IMG/VR virus record: IMGVR_UViG_3300027847_002834 | Location: 62,001-126,000 of that record | Strand: one strand, 5' to 3' | Source: a virus | Length of the DNA stretch: 64,000 nt | Shown here: piece by piece, positions 18,365 to 49,919 of the stretch | Numbering within the stretch: the stretch's first letter is position 1 | Layout of the letters: each line of letters starts with the position of its first letter | Position numbers and translations under genes: made by a program | Notes under the pieces: model-generated | The model's input: only the letters and a program-made list of their open reading frames with translations | Databases searched by the model: none | Told to the model about the DNA's origin: nothing

Positions 18365-21117
18365 TCTATTTCCGCCACCGGTTTATCATTTGTCATAATT
18401 TTTTCGAGAATTCCTGATGATTCCCCATCTCCAGAAATTATTCCATCTATCAAATATGATTTTGGTTTGCTGAATGCAAGTGCAAGAAGCCATGATTCCC
18501 TAGATGGGATCGACTCAATACTAACCATTTCATAATCTGTTATATCTCTTTCCGGATTAACTCTCCATCTCATTTTCCCATTACGCATCATTTGAGAGAC
18601 TATGCACTCATAATGAACCAATAGGACTAATTTATAAGCCGAGTATACACCGAATAGCTTCATAAGAGAATCGTAATAAGAATTCTTTTCACTTGCATGA
18701 AATACTTTCTTTACACGACTCAAATCATTTACAATATCTTGTTGTTGAGAAGCGTCTCCAGTTGATTTCTTTGCTGCACCTGATGTATGAAACGTTCTTA
18801 ACACTAACTGGGTTGATACTTCTCCCATTGCTTGTGCTGCAATAATGCCAATGTATTTAGAATGTAAATACTTATGACTTGACCCATAACATGTTTGACA
18901 CACGCCATGGTCTTCACAAAACAACGGAGATCGAACATGTACTAATTGTCCCAGAAATGAATGATAGTTACCATATGTAATTTCAACTAATCCATCATCT
19001 GTTACACTATACCGTCCTATTAGAGACTTTGCTAATTTCAATCCTCCATTTTCCTTCTCGGGAATATTAATTGCAAGAGTATCTACTGTACCACAATCTT
19101 CGTTTTTACCCAATTCAAGATTAACAGAACAATACACCAATTTTCTAGTTAAGTATCCAGAATCTCCAGTGTTAAGTGCTGTATCTAATAATCCTTTTCT
19201 TGAACCATAGCAAGAGATGAAAAAATCATCTCTAGTCAATCCACCAATTAGATTACTCTTAATTGGTGTTTCAATGATCTTCCCTGCAAAGTTAGAAACA
19301 AATCCTCTACACAGCACAATCTGGTTCGCTTGATCCCATGATCCTCTTGAACCCGAATCGATGAATAGGGAATAAGGGAATGCTTCTCGTACCTTCTCTT
19401 GTATTTCTGTTGATTGAATCTTAGAGAATTTATCACCCCACTCTAATTCAGGATCATCCATTATATCGGACACTATTGTATCAGCGCCTTTTAATAACAT
19501 ATTCTTTAATGACATAGTACAACCAAATCGAGATGTAGACTTAAATCCTAACACCTTTATATCGTCTAAAATATCACACACTTGATCAGAGTTTCTAGTT
19601 CTAGCCAAATCATCCAACAAAACTCTCAACAGTTTTTTATCAATTACTTCATTGATGAATGGATAATCTGGCAATATGCTATTGAATTCAACTCTTCCTT
19701 CGTATGTATCAATGCCATCTGCTATCACCTTTTTAGATTCGTCTTCTTTGGTTAAGAGATATAATCCTAAAATTATATCCTGATTAACACCAAGAATAAG
19801 ACTTCCAGTAGTTGGACAGATCAGATTGTTCTTTATAGATAACTTCTCTTTGCATTCTGCCGTGGTTTCTTCTGTCAACGGTCTATATATTGCCATTTGA
19901 TCTCCATCAAAATCTGCATTATATGGCTCGCATACCATCGGATGTATTTTAATTACATTGTCAGTATTGATTAATACATCAAATGACAATATTCCCATTC
20001 TATGTAACGTTGGTTGTCTATTAAGAATAACGGATGTACCCTCACAACAGTTCTTTACAACATCTAATAATGAGAGATCTTTAATTTTTATACATGAATC
20101 AATATGATCTATTGCTGAATCATATCGTTTGAATGTTCTCTTCTCTAGTAATTTGTTTGCTAGTTCCAATTTATACAATTCAAGTGCAAGCACATAAGGT
20201 ATAGAGCATTGATTTAATCTCAAACTAGGTTCAGGTGCAATAACTGCTCTCCCTGAAAAATCAACTCTCTTGCCCAAAATCGATCCTCTGATCAATCCTG
20301 TTTTCTTACTCAACTTCTTGAATATAAAATCATAAAGAGACGTTACATGTCGTTGAAGATTTCTAAATGTGGCTTCCCGTATTCCTGCAACCGCAGCAGT
20401 TTCTAAATGGTCGTCCTTCATTAAAATCGAGAAATTCAAGATAGTTGTTAAATATCTATTCATCTCATCTCGCATTTGAGCATCCTTTGTCTTAGACACT
20501 GGTCTAAACTCAGGTGGTAAGATAATTATATTAGACATGTAAAATTTAGACAAGTGAGTCTCAACTATTTTCCACATCGCATCTTTATCTTTCTTTCTAT
20601 CACACTCAAACTTTACGAGATCGTAAACTCCATCAACACCAATAAACACAGGTTTATCATCTGGTAATGTTGGAAGTTCCTCTTCATCTGATTCCCTCTC
20701 TTTGAATATTCGTTCAACTAATACATAACTAGCCAACTCTTCATCAAAATAATATGCATAAATCTTTTCATTAAAGAACAGATTCTCTATCATGTCCCTC
20801 ATTTTTGTCTTTCCTGCCCTAATAATTAATTGATACATAATAGGGTTTAGTATTGGAAAGGGTAACACTATTTTTGCAAATCTTTTTCGTCTCTCATTAG
20901 AATATGTAATGTCTACATCACATGTTCCACATTTATCTCCAATTCTAGATCTTCCCCAATACGTTTTACAACCACACCATGTAGTTTTGACTGGTCCGAA
21001 TATCTTTTCACTGAAAAGACCTTCTGGGTGAAATCCGTGCTTTGAATAAATTTTAGAACTTGATACTTGGGGTATACCCTCGCAGAATTCATCTACGTTA
21101 AAGAAATCTAATTTCAC
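18358..21117 (-). CDS. Multisubunit RNA polymerase 1, beta' subunit-like
   Basis: 919 aa, GTG start at 21117 behind AGGA. The catalytic magnesium loop NADFDGDQMA is at residues 400-409, with Asp402, 404 and 406. The N-terminal zinc site is present (WCGCKTYWG and KCGTCDVDI, near 47-67), as is the second zinc site CEDHGVCQTCYG. RVDFSGRAVI and NRQPTLHRMG precede the active site, and the trigger-loop region LRTFHTSGAAKKS near 775 is uninterrupted. This is a complete, compact beta'. It lies directly downstream of the E2-like gene cluster in the same orientation. Confidence 0.94.
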   Translation of the reverse strand: MKLDFFNVDEFCEGIPQVSSSKIYSKHGFHPEGLFSEKIFGPVKTTWCGCKTYWGRSRIGDKCGTCDVDITYSNERRKRFAKIVLPFPILNPIMYQLIIRAGKTKMRDMIENLFFNEKIYAYYFDEELASYVLVERIFKERESDEEELPTLPDDKPVFIGVDGVYDLVKFECDRKKDKDAMWKIVETHLSKFYMSNIIILPPEFRPVSKTKDAQMRDEMNRYLTTILNFSILMKDDHLETAAVAGIREATFRNLQRHVTSLYDFIFKKLSKKTGLIRGSILGKRVDFSGRAVIAPEPSLRLNQCSIPYVLALELYKLELANKLLEKRTFKRYDSAIDHIDSCIKIKDLSLLDVVKNCCEGTSVILNRQPTLHRMGILSFDVLINTDNVIKIHPMVCEPYNADFDGDQMAIYRPLTEETTAECKEKLSIKNNLICPTTGSLILGVNQDIILGLYLLTKEDESKKVIADGIDTYEGRVEFNSILPDYPFINEVIDKKLLRVLLDDLARTRNSDQVCDILDDIKVLGFKSTSRFGCTMSLKNMLLKGADTIVSDIMDDPELEWGDKFSKIQSTEIQEKVREAFPYSLFIDSGSRGSWDQANQIVLCRGFVSNFAGKIIETPIKSNLIGGLTRDDFFISCYGSRKGLLDTALNTGDSGYLTRKLVYCSVNLELGKNEDCGTVDTLAINIPEKENGGLKLAKSLIGRYSVTDDGLVEITYGNYHSFLGQLVHVRSPLFCEDHGVCQTCYGSSHKYLHSKYIGIIAAQAMGEVSTQLVLRTFHTSGAAKKSTGDASQQQDIVNDLSRVKKVFHASEKNSYYDSLMKLFGVYSAYKLVLLVHYECIVSQMMRNGKMRWRVNPERDITDYEMVSIESIPSRESWLLALAFSKPKSYLIDGIISGDGESSGILEKIMTNDKPVAEIEC

Positions 21118-24085: not shown

Positions 24086-26602
24086 TTAAATACTCAGAAC
24101 CACATCACTCTCAGCGTCTTGTGTATAAGAGTGTGTAATCAATGTAATGTTTTTATTGTTTGCTAACGCTTTTAAATTCTGACAAAAAGTAGAAGAATTA
24201 GCAGAATCAAGACTGTCTAATACTTCATCCAGTAAAATAATATTAAATGATTTATCATATAGATTTTCAACTAACTTTCGTAATACCATCATACAACAAA
24301 CATCAATCTGACGTTTTTCCCCACCAGATAATAACTTATGACTATCTGCCCCTGTTTCTGTATTCAATACATTCACAGAAAATCTCTCTCTGATATCTCC
24401 ACCTTTTGTTTCAGATAGGGTATCAAACGAGACTATAAATTTACCTGGTGCAATCTTTGTTAGTTCCTCACGAATTGTCTTATTCATAAAAGGAATAGAT
24501 CCATCAATTAACATCGACGGTATTCCTTTATCAGAAAATGCAATTTTCCAAAACTTATAAACTTCCAGTTTTTTATTTCCCTTTTTTATAGAAGCGGCAT
24601 AATTATTTTTTTCAACTGTCAATTCATTTAATTCACTCTTTACAGAATCTAATTTAGATTCATCTATATCAGTATCTTCTTCCAACGTATAAAGCTCATT
24701 TCGATTAAAGTCTAAAGATGCTATAAGACGAACAATAGAAGCAGTCCTTCCTTCTATTTCAAGTTTAGATTCTAACTGTTCAACTTTCTCTACTTGTATA
24801 TTAAGCAAATCTGATTCAAGTGTATATTTGGATGATAGAAACTCATTTAATATTTCTTTAGACTCTGTTTTAGATTTAATATCTATTTCATCTTCTATCT
24901 TTATTTTAAATACTTCAAAATCAGATTTAAGTTTTTTCTTTTCAGATTCTATTTGAATAGACAACTTAGACTTGTTCTCTTGGCATTCATCCATTAGCAT
25001 ATCATATTTTTCATCAATAGCTTTATCGGTTTCTTTTCTGGCAACTATAATAATATCTAACTGTTGTGTAATATCTAATATACTTGTAGAATTATCTGTT
25101 TTCTTTTTATCTCCTGTAGCTAAGAGAGTACTAAGATCTTTCTCTACCTTCTCATTTTCATCTATGAGTTTTTGTTTATAATCAGCATATAATGTTTTGA
25201 TGTTTAAGAATTCAGCCTTTATAGCTTCGATTCGATCAGTCTTTTCATTAATTAATTTCTCAATCAATTCAGATTGTTCTTGTAAATGTTGTTTATGGCT
25301 ATTGTCCTCTACCTTTTGATTACACATTAAACATGTATCAAAATCAATTTGGACTTGATGCCTTTTTTCATTTACTTCACCATTAAGAGCTTTAGCCTCT
25401 TGTTTAAGATCCTCTGACTTCTTTATAAGAGAATCAATTTGATCTTGAATGTCATATACATTAACTGACTTATTCTTTCGTGCTTTTTCAATATCATATT
25501 GTTGACTTAAAAGAACCTTCCCTCTCTCCAATTCAATAAGATCAGATTTCAATTTAGATTCGTTATCAAACGATCCTTTAATAGAAGTTTGAGTCTCTTC
25601 CGCCTTTTGACTTGTCAAGATAGTTAATGTGTCAGCCAATGTTGTGAGCTTTTGTCCCAATGTTTCACGGGTATTCGAGAAACTAGTGTCTAACTCATTT
25701 TTCATTTTAGACAAGATATCATCTTTTTCTCTTACTAGCTTACTGATAAGATTCTCTTGTTTCTTCTCTTTAGCTTCTTCCAATCCAAATAATTCATCTG
25801 ACATTTTAACTATATCTACATCTATATGGACTAGTTTTTTATTTATAGAATCCAGATCTTTCTTTGTTTTATCTTCATCAAGATCGTTAAGATCCTTTTC
25901 CATTAACGGTATTCTAATAGTCAAATCTTTAATTCTATTAGCAAGATCATCTTTCTGTGCCTGAATAAATGCAGATGTTTCAGTCAACAGAGTTTCTTTT
26001 TCTTCAAGTCTAACTTCTATTTTGTCAAACTCTCTACTCTGATTATCAACTTCTATAGTGAGAGTTTTAGAATCTTCGTCTATATATTCTTTATATCTTT
26101 TCCATTCCTCAAGTTGTAGGATAGATGAAAAAATTTGCTTTTGTTGAGAATCATTCAACGACGTAAAGAAATCCTTAACTTGCTGAGAAAAATAAATACT
26201 ATTTAAAAAAACTTGTTTAGGAACTAAAATCTGCTCTATTCTCTTATATGTATCAGTTGTAGTTTTCCCTGAAATGTCAGTTCCATTCAGATACAAATAC
26301 AACTTATTAGAATGTTTAGAATGTTTATAATAACGCTTTATTAGATATTCATCAGTGTCCACTAGAAAATCTACTTCTACTTCGAGATTTTTCCCTTCCT
26401 TTTTATTTACTAAATCTGGAAGTTCAATTCCTTCTGCTGTTTTCCCATATAAGGCAATCATTAAAGCCATAAAATAAGAAGACTTTCCTTTACCATTTGG
26501 TCCAACAATAGATACTAATTTATTATTAGGGAATTCTAATTCTGTTTCAATGTGACATCTAAAATTTACTAACTTTACTTTATTAAATTGGATATTTTTC
26601 AT
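24086..26602 (-). CDS. SbcC/Rad50/gp46-like recombination nuclease ATPase
   Basis: 838 aa. Walker A GPNGKGKSSYF lies near residue 34, followed by long coiled coils with a central zinc hook CLMCNQKV (near residue 425), then the ABC signature LSGGEKRQ and Walker B IILLDEVLDSLDS at the C-terminus. This is the complete Rad50 layout. It forms a nuclease complex with the Mre11-like partner encoded just upstream (4-base overlap) and processes broken ends for recombination-dependent replication, as T4 gp46/gp47 do. Confidence 0.96.
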   Translation of the reverse strand: MKNIQFNKVKLVNFRCHIETELEFPNNKLVSIVGPNGKGKSSYFMALMIALYGKTAEGIELPDLVNKKEGKNLEVEVDFLVDTDEYLIKRYYKHSKHSNKLYLYLNGTDISGKTTTDTYKRIEQILVPKQVFLNSIYFSQQVKDFFTSLNDSQQKQIFSSILQLEEWKRYKEYIDEDSKTLTIEVDNQSREFDKIEVRLEEKETLLTETSAFIQAQKDDLANRIKDLTIRIPLMEKDLNDLDEDKTKKDLDSINKKLVHIDVDIVKMSDELFGLEEAKEKKQENLISKLVREKDDILSKMKNELDTSFSNTRETLGQKLTTLADTLTILTSQKAEETQTSIKGSFDNESKLKSDLIELERGKVLLSQQYDIEKARKNKSVNVYDIQDQIDSLIKKSEDLKQEAKALNGEVNEKRHQVQIDFDTCLMCNQKVEDNSHKQHLQEQSELIEKLINEKTDRIEAIKAEFLNIKTLYADYKQKLIDENEKVEKDLSTLLATGDKKKTDNSTSILDITQQLDIIIVARKETDKAIDEKYDMLMDECQENKSKLSIQIESEKKKLKSDFEVFKIKIEDEIDIKSKTESKEILNEFLSSKYTLESDLLNIQVEKVEQLESKLEIEGRTASIVRLIASLDFNRNELYTLEEDTDIDESKLDSVKSELNELTVEKNNYAASIKKGNKKLEVYKFWKIAFSDKGIPSMLIDGSIPFMNKTIREELTKIAPGKFIVSFDTLSETKGGDIRERFSVNVLNTETGADSHKLLSGGEKRQIDVCCMMVLRKLVENLYDKSFNIILLDEVLDSLDSANSSTFCQNLKALANNKNITLITHSYTQDAESDVVLSI

Positions 26603-27606
26603 TCTGCCCTAGATTCTATACTTTCACATGCTAATTTCATATACTCAGGATCAGTTATTTCCATTATTTCTGCATACTTTTCAATTTTCTCTTTCCAGTT
26701 CATTGAAATATCAATGCCACGATTAGAGATATCTATAATATCAGATTCATCAATAACTGAGATATTGTTATCATTTTCTTCAATTTTGTTTTTAGTCTTC
26801 TTTCTAATTCTTACGTTATGACCATCAGCTTTAGATATAGATGCTTCTTCTAATATTTTTTTTGTATCAGAATCGTCATCTAATATATACTCTCTATATT
26901 CGGTAAATCCACTCACCTTAATAGCTTCCACTTCTAATGTTTCAGTATCATAAATTAAAAAACGTTTATCTTCATTTTTATCATTCCATGATGTATGAAT
27001 AGGACTTCCCACATACATTAATCGGGTAGTTTCATTCTTTATTTCTTGAGGTTTATGATAATGACCCAATAAAATAAGTTTGAATTTTGAAAGATGTCCC
27101 ATGTTTAAATTAGACATAATCGATATCCCGGACTGAAGTTGCGCCTCTGATAGCCCAAAATGACCTAACAGAATATCACAGGCTTCAGCCTCAAGGATAT
27201 CGACTACCATAGTACTGGACCAGGGGACCAGTAATACGTTATCTAATTTAATTGTCTCTGTATAACAACTAACATTTGAATATCCTTCAAACGCCGATAT
27301 GCTTGAAGTTTTATGATCACCAATACTAGATAAATCATGATTTCCTGATATGATCAAGAACTCTAAATCTGAATAATCTAATATTATATCTTTGAATGCA
27401 TTCTGTGCGTCTGTAAAAATTATATTCTTGTCATGATTTAGATCGCCAAGAATATCAATATTTTTTATCTTCTCTTTTCGTGCGTAATCACAAACCTTTC
27501 TTATCAATGAAATAAGATCGCTTAATCTTTTAGGTAGTCCATCTTCTTGGATATTAGAATCTCTATACCAAGACAGATGTAAATCCGCTAAGGCAATTCT
27601 TTTCAT
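26599..27606 (-). CDS. SbcD/Mre11/gp47-like nuclease subunit
   Basis: 335 aa metallophosphoesterase. Motifs in order: ADLHLSW (7-13), GDLNHD, SGNHDLSS and LLGHYHKPQE, providing the two-metal site. The C-terminal third is charged, with a DDDSD stretch, and should bind the partner ATPase. AAGGAG precedes the ATG. Partner of the gene at 24086-26602. Confidence 0.95.
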   Translation of the reverse strand: MKRIALADLHLSWYRDSNIQEDGLPKRLSDLISLIRKVCDYARKEKIKNIDILGDLNHDKNIIFTDAQNAFKDIILDYSDLEFLIISGNHDLSSIGDHKTSSISAFEGYSNVSCYTETIKLDNVLLVPWSSTMVVDILEAEACDILLGHFGLSEAQLQSGISIMSNLNMGHLSKFKLILLGHYHKPQEIKNETTRLMYVGSPIHTSWNDKNEDKRFLIYDTETLEVEAIKVSGFTEYREYILDDDSDTKKILEEASISKADGHNVRIRKKTKNKIEENDNNISVIDESDIIDISNRGIDISMNWKEKIEKYAEIMEITDPEYMKLACESIESRAE

Positions 27607-27662: not shown

Positions 27663-28529
27663 TTACAACAGTGTTAGAATCTCAGTGTCATCGTCATCAT
27701 CTGCACCGTGTTGTATTCCCGCAGAATTTACAGCCTCTTCTTGGCTAATGACATCATGATCCATCAATAATACATAATCTTGCAAACAAGCACTTCCATC
27801 TTCCATTGATTCCATTGCTTGTTCTAATCTTTCTCTCAACATATCAGCGGGATCTACAATAGGAATGTTCATTCCTAGAAAATCTTCACGGTTTCCTACC
27901 ATTCCTGTCTGATGCTTTACTTGGCCATGGGAATTATAGTTATAATGTCCAGTATGAACAACTGCTTTTTGTTGATAGACCTTTTTACTAACTTTCTCAA
28001 GATCAAGATCAAACTTTTTAGTATTTATAATATTAATATCCAACGGTAGTTGAATTCTACCAACTGGACTATTAATATTAATTATACCTGAATGAATAAT
28101 TCTATTCACAAACAATAGAGAAAATTCATGATTAACATTGATATACTCATCATCGGTGCCTGAGAATTTTGTACAACCAGAAGGATGTCTATGAATTACT
28201 CCATTGAACCCCGCTGGTGCTTCTTCTTTAAAATCTATAGTTGCAGCAGTTACTTCTTGTTCAGGAAGCATCCACTTATTTTCCAGCATTAATATGCCAT
28301 CGACAACCTTACCCTTTAAATACAATGCAAATTCAACAGAAGAATCTGGAAGATCATATTGGATTTGTAACATGACTTCCTGTAAATCACTTGGAATTAC
28401 GACATCTACACTGTTGATTATTTGTAGAGCAGGATTTTCATTTTTCCAAACTACTTCCCCCGAACTCTTTTTTATTTTCATGTCTGCTTTAGACGTATCT
28501 ACTGATTCATCCTTTATGGTCGTTAGCAT
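27663..28529 (-). CDS. JAMM/MPN+ metalloprotease (deubiquitinase-like)
   Basis: 288 aa. Residues 113-126 read HRHPSGCTKFSGTD, an exact HxHPx6SxxD JAMM motif (His113, His115, Ser123, Asp126), with the upstream catalytic Glu likely Glu66 in SSVEFALYL. JAMM enzymes remove ubiquitin-like modifiers or cut at their C-termini. The C-terminal 100 residues are an unknown extension ending in an acidic DDDDTE tail. GAGGAAG precedes the ATG, and the first 23 bases overlap the E1 gene, so the two are coupled. PRTRC protein A, BilC and Cap3 are bacterial counterparts by role. Confidence 0.85.
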   Translation of the reverse strand: MLTTIKDESVDTSKADMKIKKSSGEVVWKNENPALQIINSVDVVIPSDLQEVMLQIQYDLPDSSVEFALYLKGKVVDGILMLENKWMLPEQEVTAATIDFKEEAPAGFNGVIHRHPSGCTKFSGTDDEYINVNHEFSLLFVNRIIHSGIININSPVGRIQLPLDINIINTKKFDLDLEKVSKKVYQQKAVVHTGHYNYNSHGQVKHQTGMVGNREDFLGMNIPIVDPADMLRERLEQAMESMEDGSACLQDYVLLMDHDVISQEEAVNSAGIQHGADDDDDTEILTLL

Positions 28530-29277
28530 TGTACACTTCCTCTGTTACCGGTTGTTGATCTACATTCTGGCCCAAATAAATTCCTTCTAATAATCGTCCT
28601 GTATCAAATGTTATAAGTTTATTAAATAAGTTATCTTTATCATTGCATGAAAAACTTCCATCGTCAATTAATGAGTATTTTGGCATTAGAATGTGATTAC
28701 ATACCAAATTTGCAACTAATTGAGCAGAGCAAACAAAAGAAGGAACTATATCATAATTCCCCCGTGCACTCGTACCCATTACAGTTGTATGTCTTGGATT
28801 TCCGTCTATTGTAACAGACAATCCATCATAACCTAATTTCCAAACCTTTGTATGTTCTGAAAACTGCTTTATATCTTTAAAGATATTATCTCTACAATCT
28901 ATAACTACCTCTGGGTAACTCCCCTTCCCCTTAAGTACTTCCAATGAGTTTTCATCATACTTTTCATTATATATAACTATATCAATATCAATTCTTCTTT
29001 CAAGGATAAGCTCTAATACTACATCTGTTTTATTTCTTCCAATATCACATATTCTAAATAACGTTCTATTCAGATTAGTATTTTCAATTGTATCCGAATC
29101 GTACATAACTAGTTTCTTAATTTGGCCAGTTAACGCCAAATTAAGAGCAACCCATGAACCTATTCCGCCAAGTCCAATTACTAGTGCACAATTATATTCT
29201 CTAAGATTTAATGATCGTTGTCTGTCACGTACTTCTTCTCCCCGATCATTAACTATATTATAAATTGATTGTGTCAT
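28507..29277 (-). CDS. E1/ThiF-family adenylating enzyme
   Basis: 256 aa, the size of MoeB/ThiF. Nucleotide loop VIGLGGIGSW (residues 33-42), acidic strand YDSDTIENTNLNR (Asp60, Asp62, Arg71), catalytic-type Lys in DIGRNKTDV (Lys83), and VVIDCRDN. A C-terminal segment IVPSFVCSAQLVAN contains a Cys that could carry a thioester. Unlike sulfur-carrier operons, no thiamine or molybdopterin genes are nearby. Its neighbours are a JAMM protease and an E2-like protein, which is the composition of a bacterial protein-conjugation cassette. Confidence 0.85.
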   Translation of the reverse strand: MTQSIYNIVNDRGEEVRDRQRSLNLREYNCALVIGLGGIGSWVALNLALTGQIKKLVMYDSDTIENTNLNRTLFRICDIGRNKTDVVLELILERRIDIDIVIYNEKYDENSLEVLKGKGSYPEVVIDCRDNIFKDIKQFSEHTKVWKLGYDGLSVTIDGNPRHTTVMGTSARGNYDIVPSFVCSAQLVANLVCNHILMPKYSLIDDGSFSCNDKDNLFNKLITFDTGRLLEGIYLGQNVDQQPVTEEVYNANDHKG

Positions 29278-29283
29278 TATAAA

Positions 29284-31407
29284 TCACTCGTTTGTTGAGT
29301 TTGTTGAATATCTAATGTCCGGTGAATTATCTATATATTGTATACAATCTGACGCGGATACTATTTTATCCTTTATATTCTTATATGCCTCCTTTTCCCA
29401 ATCTTTAGGTATTATGTCAGATTCTTTAGTCTTCTTTTTGGGTGGAGTTAATAACAATCCAAACTTTTTCCTTACTGTTTCTGAGAGAAATCCCCATGCC
29501 CTACAAATGACATCTCCACCTAATAATGAAAGATTCATGATCACCTTTTCAAAAGTTTCAGGATCATTAAAAAGCATTGGTCGGGTATATGAATTTTTAC
29601 AATAGAAATATAAAGGTTTATCACTATCGTGGGAACCATCAGGCAAAAATACACCTATAACAGTTACACCATTAGGATGTACCCAAGTTAATCTTCTATC
29701 AGAGTTTAAGATGAAAGATGATGAAACAGTTTCGGCATTACGCATTTGATCTAAAATTCGTATATATACAGATAATTCTTCAACATCAATTTTATCATCT
29801 ATAGCCTCTTTAATTACGTCTACATCTATTAATTTGCCGTCCTTAATAATTTCAACTTCATCTTTTCCATTTATTGTTCTTGAGGGAGACAGCCCTCTAT
29901 TATCATCCTTTTCATCATCTATTATTAAATCTCCTGCACCAATAGCAATCATTTTAGATTTAGATGATTTTTTAGATACTTTAAGAAATTCTGATTCTGA
30001 TTTGCATTTAACCTTTAATATTTTGTGATAATACGATTCATTATAAGCACTATCATAATTTAGAATCTGTAATAACGATTCCATTTTTATTAAATGCTCT
30101 TCAATTTTTTCCGTGGGTCCAGAAAATTTAATATTTCCTAAATCACCTAAGCATACTGAACCATCAGAAGATACATTTGGATGGGTGGATTCTGTAAAAG
30201 AAAATCCATCTCCATTAATATATAACCATTTTACTCTAAACATTCTTAACTCTTTAGGAATTATTTTACAAACACCATCTCTAAAAAATCGATCAGGTAA
30301 TATATCTATCTTCTTTTTCCATAACAAATTAGATCTATAATTACTACTAAATCGTTCATGGGTAGCTACTTCCCATCCATATTTAGTTAACAGACCAGAT
30401 ATAGTCAATCCTCTATGAAACGATTGTTGTGAGCTGTCTCGATTTTCATTTGAAGCTCGTTCTAATACTTTGGTTAATAAACTTGCATATATTTCAGATT
30501 TCCCTGATTGATAGATTGTGTCCCACTCTGCGGTAGCCATAGTGCGTTTTAATTCTTTCAAAATCCCTTCGGAATCTAAAGTAAAGTCTGCATCTGATGG
30601 GGAATATTTACATTCCTCTAATCTCTTTATAAGTTTACATATAGATTCATCTTTTCCGTCAGCTTCCCAATGTTTAATATCTATATCATGAAGTCTATTA
30701 TGAACGAATGTAATTCGATCAAGAATGTTTTCTAGTAATACATTAACCTTTTCTACATCTCTTGATCGTCCACTTCTCATCAAATATCTTAATACTGGCC
30801 ATTTTATATAAGTGGTTCCATCCACACACATAAACCCAACTAAAACTGAATTAGTTCCAACAAAGAAGACCTCTGATACTAAACTATCTTTGACATCACA
30901 AATATCTTGTAATAATCTTGAATTTACAACTGAAGTAAGATTTGCAAATCCTGGATTTCTAAATCTCATATTTGGACATATATTGACACATAATTTTCTA
31001 AATGTTACATCGGAATCATTTAAAGGAGTTCCTAAATATTTAGAAAATGACGTAGCCATACTTGCATGTGAAACTCTAGGATTACATGTAATATATTTTA
31101 AAAGATCACTAAGTCCAAAGTTTGTTATAACTAACTTGTGATTCATCTTTAATGACTTACCATATTCATCCAAGGTTAGCTGTTCGTCATAAACTAGACT
31201 ATATGAATTCAACCTATGGGTGTCACCTGGATCGTCAGATATGACATCTCTTACTACTACATTATTTACCAAATCTAAATATTTATCATTTACCAAAAGT
31301 TTAGAAAGACATTTATTTAGCTTTTCTATAAATCTTCGTTCAAATGTATAATCTCTATGGTTATCTGGGGTAAACAAACGAGAAAGGGTTTCTTGTGTTC
31401 TGCTCAT
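29284..31407 (-). CDS. Large protein with an E2-like HPN-Cys domain
   Basis: 707 aa. THPNVSSDGSVCLGDLG places His409-Pro410-Asn411 and Cys419 at the exact spacing of the E2 active site (HPN then Cys ten residues after His). It is preceded by strands (MFRVKWLYINGDGFSF) and followed by a helical segment with LLQILNYDSAYNESYY, as in bacterial E2-like families. About 330 N-terminal residues are helical and unrecognised; a Lys/Asp-rich linker (520-540) leads to a C-terminal domain of about 150 residues. It could combine conjugating and substrate-recognition functions. Seven bases separate it from the E1 gene. Confidence 0.65.
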   Translation of the reverse strand: MSRTQETLSRLFTPDNHRDYTFERRFIEKLNKCLSKLLVNDKYLDLVNNVVVRDVISDDPGDTHRLNSYSLVYDEQLTLDEYGKSLKMNHKLVITNFGLSDLLKYITCNPRVSHASMATSFSKYLGTPLNDSDVTFRKLCVNICPNMRFRNPGFANLTSVVNSRLLQDICDVKDSLVSEVFFVGTNSVLVGFMCVDGTTYIKWPVLRYLMRSGRSRDVEKVNVLLENILDRITFVHNRLHDIDIKHWEADGKDESICKLIKRLEECKYSPSDADFTLDSEGILKELKRTMATAEWDTIYQSGKSEIYASLLTKVLERASNENRDSSQQSFHRGLTISGLLTKYGWEVATHERFSSNYRSNLLWKKKIDILPDRFFRDGVCKIIPKELRMFRVKWLYINGDGFSFTESTHPNVSSDGSVCLGDLGNIKFSGPTEKIEEHLIKMESLLQILNYDSAYNESYYHKILKVKCKSESEFLKVSKKSSKSKMIAIGAGDLIIDDEKDDNRGLSPSRTINGKDEVEIIKDGKLIDVDVIKEAIDDKIDVEELSVYIRILDQMRNAETVSSSFILNSDRRLTWVHPNGVTVIGVFLPDGSHDSDKPLYFYCKNSYTRPMLFNDPETFEKVIMNLSLLGGDVICRAWGFLSETVRKKFGLLLTPPKKKTKESDIIPKDWEKEAYKNIKDKIVSASDCIQYIDNSPDIRYSTNSTNE

Positions 31408-31469: not shown

Positions 31470-32078
31470 TTACGCAGCTTTATTTACTTTGCCGACTTTC
31501 AACGAAAGAATACGACCTTCACCCAGAACGATATCAGTCTTACCGGAAATGTCGGTATTAGTTTTGACATCAGAAACAGCAAACGAGGCCATTCCTTGTT
31601 CAGTGGCATAAGTACTAATCGCGGAGAGGGTGTCATTTGCGTCCTCAACCTTGAACTTTGGTTCGCCGTTGATTACCAAAAGATACGCACCGTCAGCGAG
31701 AGACACCTTATAACCTTTCGGAAATGCCTTGTTTGGCGGGCAGTGAACATGAACACGTCCACTCTTTTTCTTTGCTGTAAACCCAGACAATGTATCAGCA
31801 GTCAATGAAGCAGGAGAACCAACCTTGACCATGGGCTTCTTAGATGCTTTGATAGTTGTCACTCCGCTGGTTCCACTTCCTGCAGAATACGTCACAAATC
31901 GACCACCATTATAAACAGAAAGCGTTCCATTTTCTACTAATGTGGTCAGTTCTTCCTTCAGCGATGCTGATGCCTTTGATGTAAAAAGTACATCCTTGGA
32001 TATTCTGGTTGCGGTTGAGTTTTCGTTTTTCTTGACATACAACACGACTTTATTACTTACACTTTTTGTTAGTGACAT
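31470..32078 (-). CDS. Possible winged-helix protein in its own transcription unit
   Basis: 202 aa, basic. Residues about 20-65 (ATRISKDVLFTSK, SLKEELTTLVENGTLSV, GGRFVTY) follow the helix-helix-wing pattern of a winged helix, with a basic Ser/Gly linker after it. A beta-rich C-terminal domain follows (RVHVHCPPNKAF, AYLLVINGEPKFKV). The gene uses more G and C than its neighbours, has AAGGA upstream, a host-type promoter candidate at 32115-32143 and a strong terminator. That suggests an independently and highly expressed early protein, perhaps a DNA-binding regulator. The fold call is tentative. Confidence 0.6.
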   Translation of the reverse strand: MSLTKSVSNKVVLYVKKNENSTATRISKDVLFTSKASASLKEELTTLVENGTLSVYNGGRFVTYSAGSGTSGVTTIKASKKPMVKVGSPASLTADTLSGFTAKKKSGRVHVHCPPNKAFPKGYKVSLADGAYLLVINGEPKFKVEDANDTLSAISTYATEQGMASFAVSDVKTNTDISGKTDIVLGEGRILSLKVGKVNKAA

Positions 32079-32112: not shown

Positions 32113-33534
32113 CTATTTTAATATCTTTTCTTCTATTTGCCAATTCTTTTCTGTATAGAATCCAATCCGGTACTTTGCCCGATTGATCAAATTATCATCT
32201 CCTATATCGACTAAATCTATTACGACTGGTTGTTGTTTATCTGGATGAGATCTAACAACCCGCCCAACAGCCTGTTCTAAATTAGAAACAGGAGTAGCCA
32301 ATATTAAACAATCTAATATTTCTTTATTAGTACCGTCTCTAGCACTTCCATAAGTACTAAAAACTAATCTACGCTGTAGATGAGCATCACGCTCATTCTT
32401 CGATCTTGGGATGAAGAAACCTACTTCTTCTTTGTTTTTACATGCCTGCGAGGCATGATCTAAAATTTTAATTCTATCTGCCAAAAATAATAAGTGTCTG
32501 GTCGACTTAGACACTTCCATGACCAATTTTTTTATAGCTTTTTTATACGGCTCGGACTTGACTAACAAACTCAAATATCTAGCCGTGTCAAAAAACGGTT
32601 TAATATTGTTATCCCGATCGTACTTTGTAAGATGTGTAATGTAATTTTTATGATTTTTCATAACACCATGATCAAATTTCAATAAGATCACTTTCGGTGC
32701 CATAGTGTCTATACCCGAGGAAACCGGTACGTATACCTGTCCAAGATGTTTATATATTATATCTGTATTTCCATCTAATCTACTTGGAGTAGCAGACAAA
32801 CCATAGATTCGTTTAGATGGAATCCAAATCGAAGTTCTAGAAAACTGTTCAGCACTTACCGAAGTATGACATTCATCCCATATAGCAATTCCAATTTGTG
32901 CATCATTCAATACCTTCTTCATTAGTTCGGGGGGCTTCCGCTTAACCAAACTACAAAATGTTTGAACAGTTGTGATTATTATATCCTTTTGCAAATCTTC
33001 CTCAAATGAAGAAGACCTAAGCCTAGAGATATTATCTTCCGATATATCTGTATGCTCTAAAAACTTATCGACCCATTGACTAGCTAAAGAGTCCTTATGT
33101 ACAAATATTATTGATTTTTTTCCAATTGTACATATCGAGTGGATGCTTACTACTGTCTTTCCTTCTCCAGGACTTAAACATAGTATACCATTAGTATTCG
33201 TTTCAAACCACTTGATCGACTCTTTCTGTCTTTCATTTCTTGGGACGACCTTGGAGGTTATACTTATATCCTTCCCTACAATACTTCTATCTGTTATCTG
33301 AAACATTGCAGGGAGTTCATAAAAACGTGGAATCATTAATTCGCGAGTTGACTTATCTGTATCGTAATATTTTCTAATATCAACATTTGGAGCATCACTA
33401 TCTGCCGTTTGTTGATATGACCTGGATTGTCTAGTCAAATCTCGAATTATTCTTGCAAACCATTCCTTGTCCTTATTGGAATCAACTGGAATTCGAATTG
33501 CAGAATCTTTTATGAGAGTTTGACTACATCCCAT
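32113..33534 (-). CDS. SF2 DNA helicase (UvsW-like)
   Basis: Start set at the ATG at 33534 (473 aa); an upstream TTG at 33561 would overlap QueD by 38 bases. Motif I LCLSPGEGKTVVS (near 125), motif II IWDECHT, motif III YGLSATPSR, motif V/VI region LDCLILATPVSNLEQAVGRVVR. T4 UvsW is a DEAH-type helicase that remodels branched DNA and R-loops and switches replication from origins to recombination. A host-type promoter candidate lies in the last 30 bases of this gene. Confidence 0.92.
   Translation of the reverse strand: MGCSQTLIKDSAIRIPVDSNKDKEWFARIIRDLTRQSRSYQQTADSDAPNVDIRKYYDTDKSTRELMIPRFYELPAMFQITDRSIVGKDISITSKVVPRNERQKESIKWFETNTNGILCLSPGEGKTVVSIHSICTIGKKSIIFVHKDSLASQWVDKFLEHTDISEDNISRLRSSSFEEDLQKDIIITTVQTFCSLVKRKPPELMKKVLNDAQIGIAIWDECHTSVSAEQFSRTSIWIPSKRIYGLSATPSRLDGNTDIIYKHLGQVYVPVSSGIDTMAPKVILLKFDHGVMKNHKNYITHLTKYDRDNNIKPFFDTARYLSLLVKSEPYKKAIKKLVMEVSKSTRHLLFLADRIKILDHASQACKNKEEVGFFIPRSKNERDAHLQRRLVFSTYGSARDGTNKEILDCLILATPVSNLEQAVGRVVRSHPDKQQPVVIDLVDIGDDNLINRAKYRIGFYTEKNWQIEEKILK
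32115..32143 (-). promoter_or_regulatory. Candidate sigma70-type promoter for the 202-aa gene
   Basis: Minus strand TTGGCA (32138-32143), a 17-base spacer and TAAAAT (32115-32120), inside the 3' end of the UvsW-like gene and about 37 bases before the downstream ATG. Combined with the terminator at 31415-31448 it would define a monocistronic unit. Confidence 0.5.
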
Positions 33535-33964
33535 ATTGCGCCCACGAATTAGGAGTTTCAAACAACTTTACATTGATTAATTCTAATCCTGAAGTTGGCG
33601 GTAAATTGTCGTTGACTTGTTCAAAGCACCACCTTGATAATTCTTCTGCTGTTGGGATAAATGGAACTTTTATAAGATTCCATGTGTCCTTAAATGGTTC
33701 AAACATTTCAGCTATCTCTTTGTCATTCTCGTAATAAATAAATCCATGATCTAATACATCATGTACATATGTTGTCATTACATCTTTCAAATCCCCAAAA
33801 TCAATAACCATTCCTTGTTCAGATGAGCCTGATTCGCTATTTAGATATCCTGAAACTGTACATTCTAGTCTATATCTATGACCATGGGGATTTCTACATT
33901 TACTTTTATGATTAGGGACTCTGTGACCTGCATCAAATTCTATAATTTTAGTTATTCTAATCAT
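33524..33964 (-). CDS. queD: 6-carboxytetrahydropterin synthase (QueD-like)
   Basis: Converts dihydroneopterin triphosphate to 6-carboxytetrahydropterin in the 7-deazaguanine pathway. ATG at 33964 gives 146 aa; a GTG two codons earlier is possible. Zinc-binding His residues are in FDAGHRV (His14) and NPHGHRYR (His27, His29), with Cys23 as likely catalytic Cys. LDHGFIYYEND and the Glu in GLELINVKLFETP complete the family signature. It sits between the topoisomerase and UvsW genes, away from FolE and QueC. Confidence 0.92.
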   Translation of the reverse strand: MIRITKIIEFDAGHRVPNHKSKCRNPHGHRYRLECTVSGYLNSESGSSEQGMVIDFGDLKDVMTTYVHDVLDHGFIYYENDKEIAEMFEPFKDTWNLIKVPFIPTAEELSRWCFEQVNDNLPPTSGLELINVKLFETPNSWAQYGM

Positions 33965-34253
33965 CTTCACTTTTTATTTGGTTTTTATTATTCTGTTCTT
34001 TTATTTTCTCTAATAAATCATCATACACAATAGCTAAATTGTCAGTTGGTAAAAAACACATACATTCACTCTTCTTCCAAATGTATCTGTCATGTTTAGA
34101 TGCTTTAACAAAAGCAGGAAATGATAACTCTAAATTATTATCAACGAATTTTACTTCTATTATATTAGTACATATATATTGATCAACATGTTCGTCTACG
34201 ACTGTTACTATTAACGTCATTGCGCCATATTGAATTAAAATTACTTTTTTCAT
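33957..34253 (-). CDS. Unknown small protein, 98 aa
   Basis: Start at the ATG at 34253 (MKKVILIQYGAMT), which overlaps the topoisomerase A stop as ATGA and has GAAGGAGAA upstream; an in-frame Met seven codons earlier lies before that site and is less likely. The core is beta-rich (TLIVTVVDEHVDQY, IIEVKFVDNNLELSF) followed by a charged helical tail ending in KSEDD. No family recognised. It is co-translated with the topoisomerase and QueD. Confidence 0.6.
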   Translation of the reverse strand: MKKVILIQYGAMTLIVTVVDEHVDQYICTNIIEVKFVDNNLELSFPAFVKASKHDRYIWKKSECMCFLPTDNLAIVYDDLLEKIKEQNNKNQIKSEDD

Positions 34254-35557
34254 TTCAAATATTTCTCCTTCCATATGTAATTAGAAAGATCAGCTAGATG
34301 AGATTCTACCTCACCCTTTAGTTGCCCAAGCCGCTGTGTATCAGTTGATATTTTAAACAGTCTAGCTAATGTATACTTGTCAAACAAACCTTTTAGGATA
34401 TCCTCAGAGCAAGAGATAGCGGACGATATGTTAGTTATCACCTTATCTAAATCATTTGGATTAGACTTCAATTCAATGCTCAAATGGGGTTTAATTTTGC
34501 CAATTAATGTTAGCTCATCTATTGCAACTTGGAACGCTTTGGTCTTTTTGATTAAATGATTTTTTACAACATTAGTAAATACAGAATGAACATTCTTAAG
34601 CATTTGATCAATACTTACCAATATTACTTTTCCATCTGTATTACACATGTGACATTCATACGTCACAGATCCAATCATCACATCATTCAATTTCTTCACA
34701 ACTTGTTCAATCTTTAACATTCTAGGCTTTACTATCGTAAATCTAACCTTTGTAGATGTTCTTGATTCATCCTGCCAACCAAGTGATTTATCAATAGTAA
34801 TTTCCTTATTGAACTTTTTTAGAATTGCAGTAAATGTTTTCGATGGGGGGATAGATTCAATAACAACTGATTTGGTATCAATCTTTTTAAATTTCCCTTT
34901 GAATTCAAGTTTTGCTCTTCCTGTTGTGAGTAATGTTTCCAATTCTTCGTTACCTGATATAATCTTACTAAGAGATATCGGTTTAATAATTGGCCCATCA
35001 CCCTTTTTGTCATCTAAAATCCATTCTAATCGTTTTAATAAATCTTTTTGCTTAAAACTAGGAATTAATGTTCTGTATCCAAATCCCATACCTTGACAAT
35101 ATGAATTTTGAGGTAATAGACAAATAGGAAACATTGTTGGCAAGAACACTGGCTCTTCTTCCATTTCCACTTCATCATACGGAACATCTTTTATATATTC
35201 AAACGTCCTATCTAATATATCCTTTTGTAATTTTACTTCTGTGTATCTTTGTGCAGCAGGGGGATTCTGGTCAACTCCAATGTTATTACCCCAATTTCCT
35301 TGTCCTGTTGCAAATCCATTTTGTACAAGCCCAACCAATGACGAATAAGCTGATTCATCTCCATGTGGATGATAGTGAGCAATACAATGCCCTACTATCT
35401 TGGCAGACTTTACAAAATTAGATTTGGCGACTTCATACAATGAGTACAATAGTCTCCTTTCAACTAATTTAGCCCCATCCATAATAAACGGAAAAGATCT
35501 AAATTTGTTTATATATTGCCCATACTCAGCGTACAGATCTTTTATTATATCATCCAT
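34250..35557 (-). CDS. Type II topoisomerase, DNA-cleaving subunit (GyrA/ParC, T4 gp52-like)
   Basis: 435 aa, the same size class as T4 gp52 (442). The active-site Tyr is Tyr105 in AAQRYTEVKL. Also present are DGAKLVERRLLY, AHYHPHGDESAY and GQGNWGNNIGVDQ, the winged-helix and tower signatures. There is no C-terminal beta-pinwheel, so it is topoisomerase IV/T4-like rather than a supercoiling gyrase. It works with the ATPase subunit at 35734-37539, from which it is separated by a 59-aa gene. Confidence 0.96.
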   Translation of the reverse strand: MDDIIKDLYAEYGQYINKFRSFPFIMDGAKLVERRLLYSLYEVAKSNFVKSAKIVGHCIAHYHPHGDESAYSSLVGLVQNGFATGQGNWGNNIGVDQNPPAAQRYTEVKLQKDILDRTFEYIKDVPYDEVEMEEEPVFLPTMFPICLLPQNSYCQGMGFGYRTLIPSFKQKDLLKRLEWILDDKKGDGPIIKPISLSKIISGNEELETLLTTGRAKLEFKGKFKKIDTKSVVIESIPPSKTFTAILKKFNKEITIDKSLGWQDESRTSTKVRFTIVKPRMLKIEQVVKKLNDVMIGSVTYECHMCNTDGKVILVSIDQMLKNVHSVFTNVVKNHLIKKTKAFQVAIDELTLIGKIKPHLSIELKSNPNDLDKVITNISSAISCSEDILKGLFDKYTLARLFKISTDTQRLGQLKGEVESHLADLSNYIWKEKYLK

Positions 35558-35737
35558 TTATATCTCAATTATTGGTTGTCCATCCACCAATCCTAGTTTT
35601 GGGGCGTCTCCGTCTTTAACATATATTTCAGAGATATCTAAATAATCTTCTTCGTCCCCATCAAATACAACAGCTTCCATGTCTAATTGTTCTTCATCCA
35701 TCTCACCCAACCATTCCTTCAACTCACGGTATATCAT
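35558..35737 (-). CDS. Small acidic protein between the topoisomerase subunits
   Basis: 59 aa (MIYRELKEWLGEMDEEQLDM at the start). ATG at 35737 overlaps the stop of the topoisomerase ATPase gene as ATGA, and its TAA abuts the ATG of the cleaving subunit. AGGAAG is about 7 bases upstream. Very acidic, with FDGDEEDYLD and a hydrophobic end LVDGQPIIEI. In T4-related phages a small subunit (gp60) can lie between topoisomerase genes, but this shows no similarity I can see. Function unknown. Confidence 0.65.
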   Translation of the reverse strand: MIYRELKEWLGEMDEEQLDMEAVVFDGDEEDYLDISEIYVKDGDAPKLGLVDGQPIIEI

Positions 35738-37539
35738 ACTAACTTCCTTTTTTCCTCTGACTTTAACATCAAGTCAAAAATACCATTACAATCTTTAGGG
35801 TAAGCAATCCTAACCAACCTTCTAGTTTTCTCATCTAATAAGCAAACTTGTAATTGGTCTGGATTCATTTCACCTAAACCCTTATATCTCTGGATCTTAC
35901 AGCTAGTATGTTTTTTCTTAAATACGTCTACTTCTTCTTGGGTGTATAACGGGACAAATTTTCCTTTTAATGTTGAACCGTATAACGGAAGAACTGCTTT
36001 ATATATGTATCCATTTCTCAATAAATCAGGAACTAGTTTTAACAACACCGTCATTAATAATACAGAAATATGTGCGCCATCTGCATCTGCATCTGTTGAC
36101 ACAATAAACTTCCCATATCTAATACCTTCTATATCAAAATCTGGAACATGCCCTGTACCTAAAGCATTTATCATTTCAATGATTTCTTTATTCTTAAGAA
36201 AATCCTTTTTATCATCTGCTATATTTGGTATCTTACCTCTAAGGGGCAATACGGCATGAATCCTAGGATTTCTACACATCAACAATGATCCACCAGCCGA
36301 TTGACCTTCTAATACAAAAAGTTCAGACTCAGAAACATTATGTGTTGTACAATCTCGTAATTTAGAATCAACTACTGAATTGAGTCTAGTTACTTGCTTT
36401 CCAGTTTTTACAATCTTCTTGCTTGAGTCTTTTTTCTTTCTATAGGAAACAAAAAATTCAAGAAGTTGATTTCTAACATCAGGATTTGCAGCTAATTCCT
36501 TTTTGAATATAGCTTCAGCTTTAGAATATAGATGAGCTAATTTAGTCCTCGGAGTTGATAACTTTTCCTTTGTTTGAGAACTATATGATGGCTCGTATAA
36601 CATTATAGATGTATAACATCTAAATCCAAGCAACGAATCAGTTTTATTAAATTCTATCTTCTCTTTCTTGGCTTCATTCTCTAATACATTTCTAATAATA
36701 TCATTTGTGCTATTTACGTGTCCACCATGATTAACACTTAGTATATTAACACATCCTAAATGTTTAGCAGTTACCGATCCTTCTAACTCCCAACAAAATC
36801 GAATATCAAGGGTTTCATCTTTTTGTGAAGTGGAGATATTAAATACTTTACTAATAGAATCTTCACTTCCACCTAACACATCCTCTTTAAAGAAAGAGTC
36901 TAAATCACAATCTATAACTTCTTTCTTTTTATCTACTATAAGTATTAACTTAAGATCATTAAGATGAATTGATGCTACTCTAAGTCTCGCCCTAATATCA
37001 TCTAAATTAAAAATCAATCCTTCAAAGTATTTTTTACTGGGCTTGAATTTTATTTGAGTTGCAAATGGCCGTTTAGCTGAATCAAAATCTTCTTCTGTAT
37101 GTTTTGCTACTTCTGCATCTTCAAATCTATAAAAGACATGTTTATCATCTCGATAAACTTCTACTTCCATAAAATCACTTAATGCAGTAACAGCAACAAT
37201 ACCAATACCATGAAGACCAGATGCTATCTTGTATACACCACTTTCGCCTTTAGAAAATTTTCCACCAGAAAACAACTGAGTGGCAATCGTAGGAATGGTG
37301 TCATTCTCAAATGGAATTCCTCTTCCATTATCTGCAACGGTGACAGTATGTTTCTTACTATCAATTTGCACTCCTATAATATCGGAATAGCCACCTTGTG
37401 CTTCATCTAATGAATTATCTAATAGCTCATATATCAAATGGTTCGGACATGTCGTATCACCGATATACATTCCCGGATGCTTTCTAATATGATCTAATTG
37501 CTCTAATACTTGAATACTTTCGTGTGTATAATCAGACAT
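35734..37539 (-). CDS. Type II topoisomerase, ATPase subunit (GyrB/ParE, T4 gp39-like)
   Basis: 601 aa. The GHKL ATPase domain shows ELLDNSLDEAQGG (about 43-55), DNGRGIPF and SGLHGIGIV. The Toprim domain shows LFVLEGQSAGGS, PLRGKIPN and STDADADGAHI, and the C-terminal RYKGLGEMNP motif is intact. All residues for ATP hydrolysis and metal binding appear present. Unlike T4, where this subunit is split into gp39 and gp60, it is one chain here. Needed for decatenation and fork progression. Confidence 0.96.
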   Translation of the reverse strand: MSDYTHESIQVLEQLDHIRKHPGMYIGDTTCPNHLIYELLDNSLDEAQGGYSDIIGVQIDSKKHTVTVADNGRGIPFENDTIPTIATQLFSGGKFSKGESGVYKIASGLHGIGIVAVTALSDFMEVEVYRDDKHVFYRFEDAEVAKHTEEDFDSAKRPFATQIKFKPSKKYFEGLIFNLDDIRARLRVASIHLNDLKLILIVDKKKEVIDCDLDSFFKEDVLGGSEDSISKVFNISTSQKDETLDIRFCWELEGSVTAKHLGCVNILSVNHGGHVNSTNDIIRNVLENEAKKEKIEFNKTDSLLGFRCYTSIMLYEPSYSSQTKEKLSTPRTKLAHLYSKAEAIFKKELAANPDVRNQLLEFFVSYRKKKDSSKKIVKTGKQVTRLNSVVDSKLRDCTTHNVSESELFVLEGQSAGGSLLMCRNPRIHAVLPLRGKIPNIADDKKDFLKNKEIIEMINALGTGHVPDFDIEGIRYGKFIVSTDADADGAHISVLLMTVLLKLVPDLLRNGYIYKAVLPLYGSTLKGKFVPLYTQEEVDVFKKKHTSCKIQRYKGLGEMNPDQLQVCLLDEKTRRLVRIAYPKDCNGIFDLMLKSEEKRKLV

Positions 37540-38121: not shown

Positions 38122-39174
38122 TTAAGTAACTAAATCTGCATTTGCAAGATATGTCTGACCATCATGATCAACAATCTGTTCGCTGAAATCACCACTCATC
38201 ATTGGACAAGTCCAATTACAACCTTTACAATAATGTTTATAGTCATACTTGATAGCATCTAGTAACTTGTCAGTGAAAACTCCGTCTGATGAAATGATAT
38301 CATCTACATCTTTAATTAATGGAGATGCAACTCCCTTAACTCTAAGACACAATCTAAAACTTCCATCTGGTTCTATACTAACATTATGGAGATCTTTATT
38401 TAATGTACATTTCATCTTACTAGGGAGATATTTATATAACTCATCTAGTAATCCGGGAATATGTACTAGTAATTCCCCACTATCTGCTCCTGCTTTCAAC
38501 TCATCAAAAATATCTCTGATCTCTTGATCCTGTGGGAGTAGAACTTCTGCTCCAACATTTGAGAAATCATAATAAGGAGTTTTTTGATCATCTACAGCAG
38601 TTATTGAACTATAGATTCCTTTATCTGTTAATTCCTTTACCATCGTCAAGATGTAGGGAATTGATTCTTTCATTATGGTGATCTCTGCAACTACATCATC
38701 CGATATGCCATCTTTTTTCATAACAGCAAGATTCTCTAATCCCCATCTAGACTTCTTTGCAATATCATCATTTCTACCAGGAATGAATGCTACAGGATCA
38801 ACTGATGAAGTGAATCCTTTAAACTTTCCATACTTCTCATATACCTGATAAATCTTCTTTTTAGCTGCTGGAGTATTATTTGATATGACCGTGTAATTCA
38901 TTTTGGTTTCATTAAGATATTTAATGATTCCTGGAAATGATTTTACAATTGTTGGCTCTCCGCCATAAATTATGAGAAATACATGAGGATTATTTGCTCT
39001 AAGTCTTTCGAATATAGGAATCCATCCATCTGCATCTAATTCAGCTTTATGATAAGCTCTCATTAAAGGATATTCTTCTGGCATATCCTCATAATCTTTT
39101 ACAATATTACAATACGAACATGCCAAGTTACAATGTCTTGTAATAAGGATATTTGCTATCCATACTTTATTCAT
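38122..39174 (-). CDS. Radical SAM enzyme with SPASM-like C-terminus
   Basis: 350 aa. The iron-sulfur motif is CNLACSYC (CxxxCxxC, residues 15-22), followed by IIYGGEPTIV, the GGE SAM-binding motif. The C-terminus contains CTLNKDLHNVSIEPDGSFRL and HYCKGCNWTCPMM, a Cys cluster like the SPASM auxiliary-cluster domain. Typical QueE is smaller and lacks this, so although QueE is the one missing step of the local deazaguanine pathway, this looks more like a peptide or other substrate-modifying enzyme. The substrate is not evident from context; neighbours are an 82-aa protein, an SSB-like protein and a lipoprotein. Confidence 0.8.
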   Translation of the reverse strand: MNKVWIANILITRHCNLACSYCNIVKDYEDMPEEYPLMRAYHKAELDADGWIPIFERLRANNPHVFLIIYGGEPTIVKSFPGIIKYLNETKMNYTVISNNTPAAKKKIYQVYEKYGKFKGFTSSVDPVAFIPGRNDDIAKKSRWGLENLAVMKKDGISDDVVAEITIMKESIPYILTMVKELTDKGIYSSITAVDDQKTPYYDFSNVGAEVLLPQDQEIRDIFDELKAGADSGELLVHIPGLLDELYKYLPSKMKCTLNKDLHNVSIEPDGSFRLCLRVKGVASPLIKDVDDIISSDGVFTDKLLDAIKYDYKHYCKGCNWTCPMMSGDFSEQIVDHDGQTYLANADLVT

Positions 39175-49490: not shown

Positions 49491-49493
49491 GTC

Positions 49494-49919
49494 TTACTTC
49501 AATTTCTTTAATGTAACAAGTCCTTTCTTTTTACTAGCAGTAAGACTCCATTTGCCTTCCAATATCTCAGACGTAAATACGAAACGTTCTGATCCTGCAT
49601 TCACATTTCCTTTCAGATTATAGCTTCCCTGTCTTGTCTTTCCTGCAAACTTAATCCGTTGTTTAAATGTTTGAGGTTTAGAAGCTGGCATTATACGGCC
49701 CATAATCTCATCCCCCTTTTTTAACAGTTCAATTGGTGTTTGAGATATGAGCATATATGACGCCCATCCGTCTGCAAGATTGGTTCCATCTGAAACTGAA
49801 TTAAAATATTTAAAATGTAAAGCTAACTCTTTCCCACTATTTGAAAAGGATATTGCTAATATATTATCCATCTTTGCTTCAAACAGAATACGTTTAATGT
49901 AAAAAAATTTATTATCCAT
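49494..49919 (-). CDS. Unknown protein between peptidase and polymerase 2 beta
   Basis: 141 aa, basic and beta-rich (FYIKRILFEAKMDN, ALHFKYFNSV, SERFVFTSEILEGKW, ending KKKGLVTLKKLK). It fits exactly between the M48 peptidase (2-base gap) and polymerase beta (3-base gap), so it is co-expressed. Features suggest a small nucleic-acid- or protein-binding domain, perhaps a virion component. No family recognised. Confidence 0.6.
   Translation of the reverse strand: MDNKFFYIKRILFEAKMDNILAISFSNSGKELALHFKYFNSVSDGTNLADGWASYMLISQTPIELLKKGDEIMGRIMPASKPQTFKQRIKFAGKTRQGSYNLKGNVNAGSERFVFTSEILEGKWSLTASKKKGLVTLKKLK

Follow-up and report, generated by a model that had tools for sequence, protein, structure and literature searches.

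We analyzed a stretch of viral DNA of 64,000 nucleotides (hereafter the window), positions 62,001 to 126,000 of the 193,518-base IMG/VR record IMGVR_UViG_3300027847_002834 (G000), and found a group of genes that probably gives the virus a self-contained system for reversible ubiquitin-like conjugation. Four genes were recognized, for a putative ubiquitin-like (UBL) modifier, an E2-like protein, an E1/ThiF-type adenylation enzyme and a JAMM metalloprotease. As read from the sequence and from a structural model, the set combines conserved catalytic residues, a modifier with a predicted beta-grasp fold and a gene order that recurs elsewhere. Judging from its genes, the record is a contig of a large T4-like myovirus; matches to terminase, tail sheath, baseplate wedge, portal and clamp loader mark it as phage.

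An earlier interpretation of the same DNA (the sequence-only reading) had described three adjacent, coupled genes for E2-like, E1 and JAMM proteins as a phage protein-conjugation cassette. All three open reading frames (ORFs) were found intact, adjacent and on the minus strand (Table 1). The E2-like and E1 genes are separated by a gap of 6 bp, and the E1 and JAMM genes overlap by 23 bp. A fourth gene, which encodes a protein of 202 amino acids (aa) with the proposed UBL domain, had been overlooked. It lies directly upstream of the E2-like gene and gives the cassette the order UBL-E2-E1-JAMM. A conjugation cassette is still the best reading of the locus, to which the UBL gene in its expected position, the recurrence of the four-gene order and the conservation of catalytic residues can now be added. 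A chance arrangement is excluded because the linked genes are co-conserved in other viral contigs.

The match of the 256-aa E1 to Pfam ThiF (Table 1) bears out the adenylation core with GxGGxG and K83 that had been assigned to it. The GxGGxG motif (residues 35-40), D60, N68/R71, K83, D127 and D130 were invariant in all 11 viral sequences. Apart from core positions 36 and 128, the E1 alignment had no widely shared cysteine column, and none was found after the adenylation core. With no catalytic cysteine conserved, the E1 would seem to transfer the UBL directly to the E2. The E1 of G001, a related contig, had no match among plasmids at 1e-5. In the JAMM protein, E66, H113, H115, S123 and D126 were kept in 12 of 12 sequences; H113, H115 and D126 are the residues that had been named before. 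The window protein had no significant match of its own in Pfam, and two of its relatives matched Prok-JAB at 1e-4 to 1.6e-3.

The putative UBC core of the 707-aa E2-like protein carries the motif HPNVSSDGSVCLG, in which H409 and the proposed catalytic C419 are 10 residues apart. This is the spacing seen in E2s, as had been claimed for the HPN...Cys419 signature, and it is kept in L028, G001, L043 and L047. H409, N411, G416 and C419 were present in five of five close members, and C419 is thus conserved in these homologues, as the JAMM residues are in theirs. A profile of the five members gave 148 matches in the PDB (best 4.2e-4) with the catalytic register kept, and all 60 of the 148 that were listed are E2s. 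These sequence comparisons support a UBC domain in the protein. Eight IMG/VR stretches matched the HPN..C pattern, five of them in unrelated frames and the others in the window virus, G001 and L020. A tblastn search of 50,697 phage records with the E2-like and JAMM proteins gave no match.

The E2-like protein also bears on a different function, in which the E1, a ThiS/MoaD-like UBL and the JAMM protein would deliver sulfide in a sulfur carrier or small-molecule pathway of the CysO or thioquinolobactin type. A ThiF-type E1 that has no conserved cysteine would suit such a pathway, and ThiS/MoaD-like carriers are also accompanied by JAB proteases (PMC1779556). We nevertheless regard a sulfur carrier as very unlikely: all close members have a conserved E2-like protein with its H..C signature, and the proteins tested within a few kb, a helicase, SbcD, QueD and a topoisomerase, include no sulfur-transfer enzyme.

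Several lines of evidence point to the 202-aa protein as the modifier. With a profile of nine viral UBLs it was the top match among 716 ORFs of the genome (E 0.05, residues 131-168); an enlarged profile of 14 members gave E 0.018, and the L050 UBL alone (phmmer) gave E 0.0058. Between 0 and 2 of 5000 shuffles of the protein equalled the real UBL score. The gene occupies the position of the UBL gene in other cassettes. AlphaFold2, given residues 95-202 and 14 others (15 aligned sequences), returned a model with a predicted local distance difference test (pLDDT) score of 83.1 and a predicted template modeling (pTM) score of 0.68, in which strands and helix follow the beta-grasp order (beta-beta-alpha-beta-beta). 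When this model was compared to the PDB with Foldseek, the top matches were mostly beta-grasp proteins (PB1, RBD, two bacterial Ubls, DWNN, ubiquitin, ISG15 and SUMO). The bacterial Ubls, at ranks 3 and 4, were 8tyx (a bacterial Ubl-deubiquitinase complex) and 8tyz (a bacterial E1-E2-Ubl complex), both of which we take to be Bil. SUMO predominated among the PDB matches of the UBL profile. From these sequence matches and the model, the C-terminal domain of the 202-aa protein is likely a UBL. Its N-terminal part, examined by eye, resembles a winged helix-turn-helix. The NKAA terminus is common to the orthologue at L028:3282-3881.

Other results weigh against a conjugation system. The sequence-level match of the UBL is weak (E 0.006-0.05), hhalign of the 202-aa pair with the UBL family gave a probability of 6.7%, albeit in the expected register, and Foldseek found no PDB match to the UBL model at E<=0.001. 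The alignment given to AlphaFold contained the other viral UBLs, which makes the model dependent on that homology. An Ala-Ala C-terminus, instead of Gly-Gly or Ala-Gly, is unusual for an E1 substrate. For the E2-like protein, the Pfam UQ_con match (2.9e-4, residues 405-465) lies below Pfam's curated cut-off, and an AlphaFold model of the 707-aa protein built with five sequences (pLDDT 34) was uninformative on the UBC fold. The conjugation activity is deduced from sequence and models, and the targets are assigned by gene neighborhood. In the neighborhoods of relatives, the clamp-like gene family had no PDB or PHROG match and is identified from position and sequence pattern.

Related cassettes were found in other contigs. 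A phage contig of 321 kb (L028) has about 20 kb of gene order in common with the window, comprising genes for the helicase, a 199-aa UBL candidate, the E2, E1 (46%), JAMM, SbcD and SbcC, the next 159-aa gene and RNA polymerase beta'. A search with hidden Markov models found UBL, E2, E1 and JAMM together in 12 IMG/VR contigs, some of them near-identical (Table 1). Scanning GTDB yielded six E1 relatives and one full cassette, in the same UBL-E2-E1-JAMM order, on a viral-looking 16-kb contig of a Thermoplasmata metagenome-assembled genome (L109). A JAMM match was present at 73 of 80 E1 loci. In other viral contigs a protein of 76-136 aa precedes the E2. The E2s fall into two subtypes, HPN/HCN..C and HYHQ..DCWG, whose profiles (E2a and E2b) cross-match at 1.6e-8. 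In most viral UBLs a glycine is the last residue or close to it, and some have an extra tail (...DEAG, ...DEAGL, ...DVAGR, ...SGGG+8); tails beyond the glycine fit maturation by the JAMM protein.

A different arrangement was seen by eye at L037:2623-7367, L041:2878-7283 and L098:2714-7207, which encode a JAMM protein, two E1-like proteins, a UBL-like and an E2-like protein. The UBL-like C-terminus (GSGRKG, PAGQKG, EAGRKG) is fused there to an N-terminal SAP-like part, and the E2-like protein is small, with HPN..C. The E1 at L044:5458-6819 has an N-terminal UBL-looking extension that ends in NEAG, like a UBL-E1 polyprotein for cutting.

The chemistry of UBL adenylation, transfer and JAMM cleavage is established for Bil and CBASS (PMC11354881, PMC10097602). 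For the window cassette, we infer catalysis, direct transfer of the UBL adenylate and targets as follows. The E1 would adenylate the UBL domain of the 202-aa protein at its C-terminus. The adenylated UBL would then pass to C419 of the E2-like protein, directly, since no catalytic cysteine is conserved in this E1 family, and from C419 onto an amino group of a target. The JAMM protein would strip the UBL from targets and probably also matures the UBL in relatives with extra C-terminal residues. Most likely, the UBL is reversibly attached to proteins during infection. The genes next to the cassettes, SbcCD and a helicase in the window and, elsewhere, a clamp loader and clamp-like gene, DNA primase, uracil-DNA glycosylase or RNA polymerase, point to nucleic-acid metabolism. 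Judged from these neighborhoods, the likeliest targets are phage proteins of replication, recombination or transcription.

The same neighborhoods can be set against two other uses of the cassette. One is virion modification, in which the UBL would be joined to structural proteins in morphogenesis. Lambdoid tail clusters set a precedent in that a Ub-like domain (TAPI) occurs there together with a JAB (TAPK), but these phage proteins have Ub-like and JAB domains only and lie within tail genes, with no E1 or E2 (PMC1779556). In G000 the sheath, terminase and portal genes are far from the cassette, and the relatives looked at closely had no recognizable structural genes beside it, so that virion modification seems quite improbable. 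The other is competition between viruses. Phages contain other captured defense systems, and a captured antiviral conjugation system might serve in superinfection exclusion by tagging the proteins of rival phages. By attaching a ubiquitin-like protein, Bil disturbs phage assembly (Hor et al. 2024, cited in PMC13288928). The location of the cassette amid core replication genes suggests a core function rather than variable defense cargo, as do the synteny with the 321-kb relative and the occurrence of E1 relatives across crAss-like phages; we think a role in competition a shade less probable still than virion modification.

Operons that encode E1, E2, JAB and Ub-like proteins in bacteria were described by Iyer et al. 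2006 (PMC1779556). The sequence-only reading had noted a resemblance to PRTRC, Bil and CBASS; the likeness in kind holds, while model scores and features argue against membership in any of them. Like the phage set, Bil combines UBL, E2, E1 and JAMM in one operon. However, Bil is a host-side system with two Ub-like domains in BilA, a CEHH motif in BilB and, in BilD, inactive and active adenylation domains (IAD and AAD) plus a Cys domain (PMC11354881), whereas the phage has a single UBL domain fused to an N-terminal region, an HPN..C E2 and an E1 that is one adenylation unit of 256 aa with no conserved cysteine. Assignment to Bil fails on the two-domain UBL and on the IAD/AAD/Cys-domain E1. CBASS type II Cap2/Cap3 and operon types 6a-6e of Iyer et al. 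2006 share the E1, E2 and JAB chemistry. Cap2 is an E2-E1 fusion, in contrast to the separate E2 and E1 genes of the phage, and no CD-NTase match was found among the cassette neighbors scanned; CBASS type II was rejected on both counts. A 6A-MBL system was also rejected (NF058523 cap2_3, 26.3 bits against a cut-off of 320). PRTRC, a plasmid-borne system, has the same component types as the phage set, namely a ThiF-type E1, an E2-like protein, a JAB and small Ub-like proteins. The phage E1 scored 27.2 bits against an NCBIfam cut-off of 144.75 for PRTRC, and there was no match to PRTRC A, B or C. No phage-encoded E1-E2-UBL-JAMM set was reported in the literature searched, where most subscription journals fall outside coverage.

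Host systems of this type are deployed against phages (PMC10097602; Bil is reviewed in PMC11354881 and Bub is named in PMC13373217), which raises the question of counter-defense: the cassette could disturb Ubl-based host immunity (CBASS Cap2/Cap3, Bil, Bub), for instance through decoy tags or through the removal of tags by the JAMM protein. The JAMM protein alone could deconjugate, yet for that purpose a complete UBL-E1-E2 set of the phage's own is unnecessary, and a virus-specific UBL suggests a private modifier. The PADLOC matches were to generic E1-E2 models and involved the E1 alone, and the flanks hold replication and repair genes, not an anti-defense island. We consider counter-defense unlikely.

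Diverged sets that resemble the conjugation cassette were found in isolated phages. In crAss001, DAC15 and Fpv3 the E1 adjoins a JAMM protein (Prok-JAB 6.5e-5 to 7.6e-3), and the pair is preceded by an E2-like protein with H..C and by another protein whose N-terminal segment is UBL-like. These sets are highly diverged from that of the window, and their order is UBL-E2-JAMM-E1. The E2 and UBL of the three phages are candidates by position, motif and weak fold matches only. The DAC15 E1 had relatives in 74 phage records, the majority from crAss-like and Flavobacterium phages, and Foldseek matches of the window UBL in BFVD include proteins of Fpv3 and cr126_1. The present labels of the crAss001, DAC15 and Fpv3 genes (thiamine biosynthesis, metalloprotease or hypothetical) are likely misannotations.

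So far, ubiquitin-like conjugation in the bacterial world has been known chiefly as host or plasmid machinery and as largely antiviral. A broader proposal, which we put forward as speculation with some small chance of being right, is that large phages of several lineages use private ubiquitin- or SUMO-like tagging of their own replication and transcription machinery; in the present phage, the modifier would be joined to a DNA-binding domain, and the E1 would pass the adenylated UBL directly on to the E2. If this were true, a complete virus-encoded set in a core region would make protein tagging a regular part of the phage life cycle, and the "thiamine biosynthesis protein" gene of the phages named above would need renaming. 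The idea can be put to a direct test in cultivable phages with diverged E1-JAMM sets, such as crAss001.

Table 1. Genes and domains of the window cassette, its conserved neighbors, and related loci in other phages.
Feature	Location	Strand	Evidence and remarks
SbcC-like ATPase	24086..26602	-	37% identity to syntenic L115 gene; conserved cassette neighbor
SbcD-like metallophosphatase	26599..27606	-	Pfam Metallophos 1.8e-4; syntenic in L028/L115; conserved cassette neighbor
JAMM/MPN metalloprotease, 288 aa	27663..28529	-	Codons: H113, 28191-28193; H115, 28185-28187; D126, 28152-28154
E1/ThiF-type adenylation enzyme, 256 aa	28507..29277	-	Pfam ThiF 5.3e-22; K83 codon 29029-29031
E2-like protein, 707 aa	29284..31407	-	Pfam UQ_con, profile vs PDB; putative UBC domain in mid-protein, between N- and C-terminal regions
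Putative UBC core, residues ~362-465	30013..30324	-	H409 codon 30181-30183; proposed catalytic C419 codon 30151-30153
Proposed UBL modifier, 202 aa	31470..32078	-	Profiles, shuffles, position, AlphaFold/Foldseek; C-terminal beta-grasp domain (predicted), end ...VNKAA
Predicted ubiquitin-like domain, residues ~123-202	31473..31712	-	AlphaFold2 and Foldseek
XPB/ResIII-type helicase	32113..33561	-	Pfam ResIII 8e-19; 47% identity to syntenic L115 gene; conserved upstream neighbor
crAss001 set, gp79-76	L150:2295-6705		Location is that of the E1-JAMM locus
DAC15 set, gp91-88	L148:1492-5669		Location is that of the E1-JAMM locus
Fpv3 set, gp55-52	L147:1622-5633		Location is that of the E1-JAMM locus
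IMG/VR contigs with UBL-E2-E1-JAMM order (12)			G001, L029, L030, L031, L033, L034, L035, L039, L043, L046, L047, L055

The SbcC identity of the ATPase listed in Table 1 was assigned because of its own sequence and its position adjoining SbcD. Close to the cassette, window positions 34250-37539 encode a two-subunit type II topoisomerase (GyrA/ParC-like and GyrB-like), and positions 38122-39174 a radical SAM protein whose viperin-like match is weak (31.4 bits; cut-off 180). A QueD-like gene (window 33524-33970) and QueE-like and weak TGT-like genes (L011:12229-13923; L012:740-2164) were also noted, from which 7-deazaguanine DNA modification is possible. In the long QueE-like protein the match is confined to residues 363-564 of 564, which suggests an insert, e.g., an intein. 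Two separate gene pairs for beta/beta' subunits of multisubunit RNA polymerase lie at window 15305-21117 and 45291-55033. The C-terminal half of the beta'-like gene at 50861-55033 has weak intein-splicing and LAGLIDADG matches.

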